Assembly (NCBI GenBank): GCA_030652115.1
Contig: JAUSBK010000011.1
Span: 62,001 to 126,000 of the forward strand
Direction: 5' to 3'
Length of the DNA stretch: 64,000 nucleotides
From: Coriobacteriia bacterium
Lineage (GTDB): Bacteria; Actinomycetota; Coriobacteriia; Anaerosomatales; Anaerosomataceae
Positions 27,525 to 27,858 of this stretch are shown piece by piece. The position numbers and the translations under genes are program-made. The notes below the pieces were generated by a model. It saw only the letters and a list, made by a program, of their open reading frames with translations, was not told the origin of the DNA and searched no databases. The first letter of the stretch is position 1, and each line of letters opens with the position of its first letter.

Positions 27525-27570
27525 ATTTCGCGAAATCGCCCTTGCACCCGCCCCGGGCATGGTCTAGAGT
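27525..27570 (+). promoter_or_regulatory. Promoter of the structured RNA with an upstream palindromic operator candidate
   Basis: TTGCAC (27542-27547) and TAGAGT (27565-27570) are separated by 17 bases and would start transcription near 27577, exactly where the 5' strand of the RNA's closing helix begins. A perfect 12-base palindrome, ATTTCGCGAAAT (27525-27536), ends 5 bases before the -35 and could bind a dimeric regulator. Binding is inferred from symmetry only. Confidence 0.6.
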
Positions 27571-27576
27571 CGATCT

Positions 27577-27822
27577 TGTCCCGAGAGGTTGAGCGGGCGA
27601 ACCGCGAAAGGTAGCGTACCAGTAGCTGCCGGCGGGGTGTGCAGGCGGAAGGCTTCGCGCAAGCTGGCCGGAGGCTCGTAGGCTCCAAAGGTGTGAAATG
27701 GGAAGCTGCGGATTAGGGGCTCGTCGGCGAGGTCTCTCGGGACACCTCTATTCTCAGGACGATCTACGAGATCGTCCGAACCCCTCACACAAGACACCCC
27801 GCAGCGCGCTGCGGGGTGTCTT
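27577..27822 (+). ncRNA. Unidentified structured non-coding RNA, about 246 nt
   Basis: No credible protein frame covers this interval. The predicted 5' end, TGTCCCGAGAG (27577-27587), is perfectly complementary to CTCTCGGGACA (27734-27744), closing a 168-nt domain. Inside it, small helices can be drawn: GCGG/CCGC (27593-27605 region), GGTAGC/GCTGCC, GCCGGC/GCTGGC and TGTGC/GCGCA. A separate perfect hairpin, GGACGATC-TACGA-GATCGTCC (27757-27777), follows, then a 15-bp terminator. Size and end-pairing recall 6S RNA, but I cannot draw the long rod with a central bubble. I do not find the signatures of tmRNA, RNase P, SRP RNA or the common riboswitches. Since the downstream gene is on the other strand, it is not a leader; it is probably a stand-alone RNA. 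Confidence 0.6.
27791..27822. terminator. Strong bidirectional terminator hairpin
   Basis: AAGACACCCCGCAGC pairs perfectly over 15 bases with GCTGCGGGGTGTCTT around a 2-base centre. It ends the plus-strand RNA and, read the other way, would terminate the minus-strand gene whose stop is at 27859. Confidence 0.8.
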
Positions 27823-27858
27823 CGTTGCCGGGTGCGATCGGTAGCCGCCGAGCGGGCC

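Follow-up and report, generated by a model that had tools for sequence, protein, structure and literature searches.

What kind of gene lies behind gatB at 27577-27822 of the window (the whole 64-kb stretch of DNA that was analysed)? The first-pass annotation described an unidentified stand-alone structured RNA of about 246 nt, and the description is supported, as no Rfam family matches the sequence, and conservation and covariation are strong in near and distant relatives alike. The structured RNA is real, but its length has to be revised: since the hairpin and terminator at the 3' end differ from copy to copy, the conserved unit is set at 168 nt (27577-27744). We consider it probable that this 168-letter gene encodes a stand-alone, trans-acting structured RNA of an undescribed family, which would most likely bind protein, as an RNA machine or a regulator, and work mainly through rigid loops.

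Extent, fold and covariation of the RNA core

The stretch 27577-27822 folds with a minimum free energy of -124.8 kcal/mol (z = -5.1), and none of 200 shuffled sequences is as low. There is no + strand ORF of at least 60 aa within it, nor was a conserved reading frame found in the RNA core, the lengths of which in 91 homologues cover all three values modulo 3. A coding gene is rejected on both counts, and the earlier judgement that no coding frame is credible is upheld.

Table 1. Predicted features of the RNA gene in the window, in order of position
Feature	Coordinates	Strand	Basis and remarks
Sigma-70-type promoter	27542..27570	+	-35 TTGCAC 27542-27547, 17-nt spacer, -10 TAGAGT 27565-27570; comparison of 93 copies
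Conserved RNA core, 168 nt	27577..27744	+	blastn and covariance models; covariation
P1 closing helix, 5' strand	27577..27590	+	14 pairs, 98% of cells paired
P2, 5' strand GCG	27597..27599	+	Pairs with 27722-27724; two-sided changes at all three pairs; 86% of cells paired
P3, 5' strand	27602..27605	+	Pairs with 27716-27719; covariation at each of the four pairs; pairing in 81.5% of cells
First loop-E-like internal loop, GAAAG side	27606..27610	+	Faces 27710-27715; GAA opposite AGUA beside the closing pair; retained in L101
P4, 5' strand GUAGC	27611..27615	+	Pairs with 27705-27709 GCUGC; covariation at each of the five pairs; pairing in 93% of cells
Near-invariant internal-loop strand GUACCAGUAG	27616..27625	+	ACCAG in 90/91 full-length copies
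Distal arm, 5' side (P5, P6)	27626..27642	+	Pairs with 27678-27695; P6 pairs all covary
Terminal hairpin GC-GCAA-GC	27657..27664	+	GNRA-type tetraloop; stem paired in 96% of cells
Distal arm, 3' side (P5, P6)	27678..27695	+	Pairs with 27626-27642; covariation and mutual information
Second loop-E-like loop, partner strand GAAAUGGGAA	27695..27704	+	GAAANGGRAA in 90/91 full-length copies
P4, 3' strand GCUGC	27705..27709	+	Pairs with 27611-27615; basis as 5' strand
First loop-E-like internal loop, GGAUUA side	27710..27715	+	AGUA in most copies
P3, 3' strand	27716..27719	+	Pairs with 27602-27605; basis as 5' strand
P2, 3' strand	27722..27724	+	Pairs with 27597-27599; basis as 5' strand
P1 closing helix, 3' strand	27731..27744	+	Pairs with 27577-27590; basis as 5' strand
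Pyrimidine-rich single-stranded tail CCUCUAUUCUCA	27745..27756	+	In most copies P1 is followed directly by a pyrimidine/U-rich tract
Local 3' hairpin and 15-bp terminator-like repeat	27757..27822	+	Sequence varies between copies; no T run

The predicted fold is one long imperfect hairpin, both ends of which are joined in a helix of 13-14 bp (Table 1). From the ends inward, its elements are P1 (13-14 bp), a short CC/GG step, P2, P3, the loop GAAAG/AGUA and P4, and past P4 come GUACC/GGGAA, the second loop AGUA/GAAA, P5, a purine-rich loop, P6 and a hairpin with a GNRA-type cap. The perfect 11-bp end-closing helix recognised in the first pass lies exactly where it was placed, TGTCCCGAGAG at 27577-27587 being fully complementary to CTCTCGGGACA at 27734-27744, and with G-U pairs it grows to 14 bp (27577-27590 with 27731-27744). 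The pair 27604/27717 of P3 is G-G in the window copy. The most conserved letters sit in the loop-E-like internal loops and the GNRA-type cap, and the GNRA pattern is present in the loop region of all 91 full-length copies. Judged from its letters, the first loop would be a good match to the bulged-G (loop E, sarcin-ricin) signature, with 27605-27716 as the closing pair beside it. For the second loop, which is possibly loop-E-like, the closing pair is less clear; in the GUACCAGUAG strand of this loop, CC 27619-27620 pairs with GG 27700-27701, and AGUA faces GAAA 27695-27698. At locus L101 a natural deletion has left an RNA of 85 nt in all, in which P1-P4 and the first loop are kept and the distal arm is replaced by GUAA. 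Because the whole distal arm was lost naturally there, what remains, P1-P4 with the first loop-E-like motif, would be the minimal unit.

The covariation evidence for this fold is decisive. In alignment A4 (78 sequences), which was fitted to the structure and favours it, the 44 pairs have 91.6% of their cells paired, and 506 two-sided compensatory cells are counted against 163±12 after shuffling, a number that none of 500 shuffles reaches. The A4 covariation score of 0.468 compares with 0.211±0.006 in shuffled alignments, and with at most 0.105 when partners are slid by 1-3 columns. At position 7 of P1, for instance, G-C has become A-U in 26 sequences of A4. Alignment A1, built by MAFFT without the structure, nevertheless shows the same picture (44 pairs, 93.4% of cells formed; 107 two-sided cells against 33±5 shuffled). 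The mutual-information calculation made no use of the structure, though the alignment it used was fitted to that structure; model pairs account for 12 of the 13 strongest column pairs, with the pairs of P4 among the strongest, and the remaining one, 27627-27694, is an additional covarying pair. Might the locus not encode an RNA at all, and be a conserved DNA element or a chance fold? The case for RNA is built from sequence comparison, which is what such a reading can draw on, but compensatory changes extend across classes of the phylum and a promoter stands at a fixed place, so that this reading has next to no probability and is practically refuted by the covariation. Comparison instead shows a conserved, covarying family of stand-alone RNA genes.

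Promoter and 3' end

The -10 box TAGAGT stands 6 nt before 27577, and it had been proposed that the promoter sets the start of transcription at the 5' strand of P1. The same element, with the same spacing and at the same distance, recurs across the family: TTGNNN, a spacer of 16-19 nt and TANNNT are found at this site in 92 of the 93 copies with enough upstream sequence, the single exception being a truncated match, compared with 1.3% of shuffled upstream regions. The spacer is 17 nt in 85 copies, and TANNNT ends 3-8 nt ahead of the RNA, 6 nt in most. A strict consensus scan flagged neither this promoter nor a T-run terminator; the predicted window promoter is nonetheless held to be secure by comparison, because its place and spacing are shared by those 92 copies.

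At the other end, blastn comparison shows that conservation ends near the end of P1. The perfect hairpin and 15-bp terminator reported earlier do exist in the sequence, as hairpin arms 27757-27765/27769-27777 and an inverted repeat 27791-27805/27808-27822, but they are not conserved, varying in sequence by copy, and lack a T run. The sole open segment of the RNA is the 3' pyrimidine tail, which changes with lineage. A single-stranded 3' tail could pair with targets, and a tail CACCUCUAUUCUC or a near variant is present in many Coriobacteriia copies, which raises the idea of a base-pairing small RNA in which CCUCUAUUCUC, anti-Shine-Dalgarno-like and comparable to the end of 16S rRNA, would bind the ribosome-binding sites of mRNAs, the hairpin serving as a stabiliser. 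We regard this as quite unlikely. The tail of the Aquicultor copies is CUUUAUUUU, as a termination tract would be, and a mere stabiliser would not hold the internal loops near-invariant. The anti-Shine-Dalgarno likeness of the tail is set aside, as it is lost outside Coriobacteriia. The preferred reading is protein binding, because it is structured loops, and no open seed, that contain the conserved letters: the RNA would work less by antisense pairing than by offering its rigid loops to a protein or to a large RNA-protein machine.

Distribution, neighbouring genes and paralogous copies

How widely is the RNA distributed? With 27540-27830 as query, blastn detected it in 36 of 41 related genomes, most members of the window's own family having two to three copies, and the window's genome itself has three, at C11:89577-89744 (the window copy), C13:159511 and C7:463324; the genomes compared are mostly metagenome assemblies. 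Covariance model R1 was built from 38 copies. Of the 197 genomes of the class, 63 carry the RNA according to this model, and they all belong to the same order as the window, the other orders of the class having no match; outside the class, R1 added 15 genomes of the phylum. With model R3, built from 78 copies, it was found in 32 of 396 genomes of the phylum sample. Lower-identity members occur in other Actinomycetota, including Candidatus Aquicultoria. The family is thus retained, in multiple copies, by several deep-branching lineages of the phylum. A pattern scan of 84,980 species returned 97 stretches, of which the model-confirmed ones all fit Actinomycetota, barring doubtful bins; they include Coriobacteriia and Anaerosomatales bins, Candidatus Aquicultor and Candidatus Oleimmundimicrobium. 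A few confirmed members lie in bins with an unclear or probably wrong organism name. The RNA-bearing contigs L116, L177 (bin named Aeromicrobium) and L168 (bin named Slackia heliotrinireducens) carry names that conflict with the tree, and these bins are probably misnamed or contaminated. Presence outside the phylum is rejected, as the model did not confirm what the pattern had picked up in Bacillota, Bacteroidota and other groups, and so is a viral origin, none of five pattern matches on viral contigs being confirmed. A pattern for the closing helix alone had no match, but it is so strict that the three known copies of the window's genome escape it too, and the negative result carries no weight.

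Toward the edge of the family, weak model matches at L250, L251 and L252 (genomes G415, G259 and G454) have mainly the closing helix (CCCCAAGAAGUCGGA / AAGGUUUCUUGGGG) in common and differ in the interior; they may be relatives whose interior has been exchanged, or else stems of no relation to the family. Apart from the closing helix, the weakest model matches have little in common with the family and may be non-members. At L042, L120, L134 and L141, two RNA copies lie about 1-3 kb apart, in tandem or in opposite orientation.

The most widespread copy adjoins an ancient locus, nif3 - CT398/Zn ribbon - rnhA - PTPS, with DtxR/FeoA - FeoB or DUF6504 - DnaE coming next; Pfam assignments of ten proteins near copies comprise NIF3, CT398/Zn ribbon, RNase H, PTPS, DtxR-FeoA, FeoB, DUF6504, DNA polymerase III and PHP. 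This nif3/rnhA locus with the RNA was found also in several Aquicultoria and other bins, and at it rnhA is opposite in 46 cases and on the same strand in 5, PTPS opposite in 44 and on the same strand in 6. In some genomes the nif3/rnhA-locus copy has RNase P RNA nearby, within 1 kb in L085 and L088 and about 15 kb away in the window's genome (C7:463324 / C7:478207). A second group of copies, including that of the window, sits behind gatB or elsewhere, and is on the gatB strand at 15 of 15 gat loci. The gene downstream of the RNA in the window is on the opposite strand. The arrangement noted at first, with gat genes upstream and an opposite-strand gene downstream, is thus correct for the window, but gatB is one of at least two loci, and the rnhA/PTPS copy is the more widely shared.

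Comparison of the nif3/rnhA and gat loci reveals no consistent cis target among the neighbouring genes. A cis riboswitch or leader is rejected, the RNA being mostly opposite to its flanking genes and no downstream gene being consistently on its strand. Because no neighbour is consistent, the RNA would act in trans. A 35-nt element, GGTTNATAGAGGCACGGGTCTCGAGAACCCACTGG, directly follows one RNA copy in each of five genomes from two families (L256-L260 = G372, G313, G294, G508, G333), where it has a single occurrence and all its fixed letters are identical; it is seen also in L085 and L088, and has no Rfam match. Such an element after one copy in each of five genomes, together with dense invariant internal-loop letters of the kind usual in binding pockets, could be taken to indicate a ligand-sensing or catalytic RNA, a stand-alone riboswitch-like molecule or a ribozyme. 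We consider this very unlikely, given that no downstream gene is consistently on the strand of the RNA, that promoter and tail delimit a complete short transcript, and that there is no meaningful match to an Rfam ribozyme or riboswitch.

The two groups of copies differ in their promoters. The -35 box begins with TTGA in 52 of 53 typed nif3/rnhA-locus copies and with TTGC in all 16 gatB copies, and several lineages retain a second copy with a different -35 box. Because the -35 label needs only three changes on a tree of 90 copies, compared with about 23.5 when shuffled, an old duplication with a promoter change is suggested, perhaps like that of 6S-1/6S-2. The two promoter types suggest that the two copies may be expressed under different conditions.

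Relation to known RNAs and proposed role

Could the RNA belong to a known family? Rfam 15 at gathering thresholds places no family anywhere in the 64-kb window, and no gathering score is reached at the RNA in 20 member loci, nor in 10 others. At E<=10, the window copy has just unrelated matches of 15-17 bits near the RNA, and 20 short stretches, mostly with divergent members, give chance matches alone (15-20 bits). The first-pass annotation could match the sequence neither to tmRNA, RNase P, SRP or 6S RNA nor to a common riboswitch, and these searches, with no meaningful match even at E<=10, agree. Each of these four RNA families has its own candidate gene or gene pieces elsewhere in the window's genome. 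tmRNA is rejected, with no RF00023 match at the RNA and a separate gene at C4:9620-9971 (149 bits), as is SRP RNA, with no RF00169 match and a separate gene at C3:67156-67251 (67 bits). RNase P RNA is rejected for want of an RF00010 match at the RNA, separate pieces being present at a contig end (C7:478207-478351); RNase P RNA genes are full-length in most relatives. Identity with 6S RNA is rejected, as there is no RF00013 match at E<=10 and a separate 6S candidate (57.9 bits) lies at C10:326583-326753. Candidates for 6S RNA (RF00013) occur in 111 of 119 genomes of the class, 36 of them above the gathering score; 6S RNA is said to be lacking in Actinobacteria (PMC9130861).

Some likenesses to other RNAs remain. 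The large stand-alone RNAs raiA and OLE are, like the window RNA, highly conserved with complex loops; they differ from it in length and fold, and the window RNA has no Rfam match and occurs in other organisms. Bacterial Y RNAs, which are bound by the Ro/Rsr protein, also have both ends in a conserved closing helix. Unlike those, the window RNA comes from a bacterial class in which a Ro (TROVE-domain) protein was found in 0 of 197 genomes, the control genome Deinobacterium being positive, and Y RNA identity is rejected. The Ms1 RNA is likewise a stand-alone small actinobacterial RNA, but its conservation is described as weak and its gene as associated with a HAD-IB hydrolase (PMC9130861), whereas the window RNA is strongly conserved and has nif3/rnhA/PTPS or gat genes as neighbours, with no HAD-IB hydrolase among the ten nearby proteins assigned by Pfam, and Ms1 identity is rejected too. 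No descriptions of RNAs in these organisms were found in the open-access literature, and Actinobacteria and Coriobacteria go unmentioned in the main texts of two surveys of bacterial noncoding RNAs. Compared with that literature and with Rfam 15, none of whose families shares its sequence and structure, the RNA is new at the level of the RNA family.

Ms1 is another polymerase-binding RNA that evolved in actinobacteria (PMC9130861), and the window RNA could be viewed as a third kind, a rod-like functional analogue of 6S and Ms1 that docks on RNA polymerase and tunes transcription. It shares with 6S RNA a stand-alone gene, a rod shape, a similar length (about 170-190 nt) and the possibility of two copies, and its duplicate genes with different promoters are reminiscent of 6S-1/6S-2. 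In B. subtilis the latter are duplicate genes with different promoters. This role seems unlikely, since the window RNA has no large open central bubble and no 6S match at E<=10, its genome has a 6S candidate of its own, and the weak conservation and HAD-IB linkage of Ms1 are unlike its context. The internal loops of 6S are also far less conserved than those of the window RNA.

On the protein-binding reading, to which we return, the RNA would be abundant and stable. By a narrow preference, we favour an undescribed housekeeping-like RNA, the core of an RNA-protein particle, that would have been present early in Actinomycetota; most of the better-studied lineages would since have lost it. Closing helix and loop E would form its shared platform, on which the distal arm is variable or dispensable. 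The RNA was not found in the sampled genomes of better-studied actinobacterial lineages, and may for that reason have gone unnoticed so far. Were its partner to prove to be RNA polymerase, or some other machine already known, the RNA would be a new form of a known kind. New stand-alone RNAs that are broadly conserved in bacteria and have elaborate internal loops are rare, and several of those already known (6S, SRP, RNase P) belong to important machines. The RNA is held at the same locus across classes and is duplicated with distinct promoters, and because it comes with a searchable model, a fixed locus and these promoters, its expression, structure and partner are directly testable.
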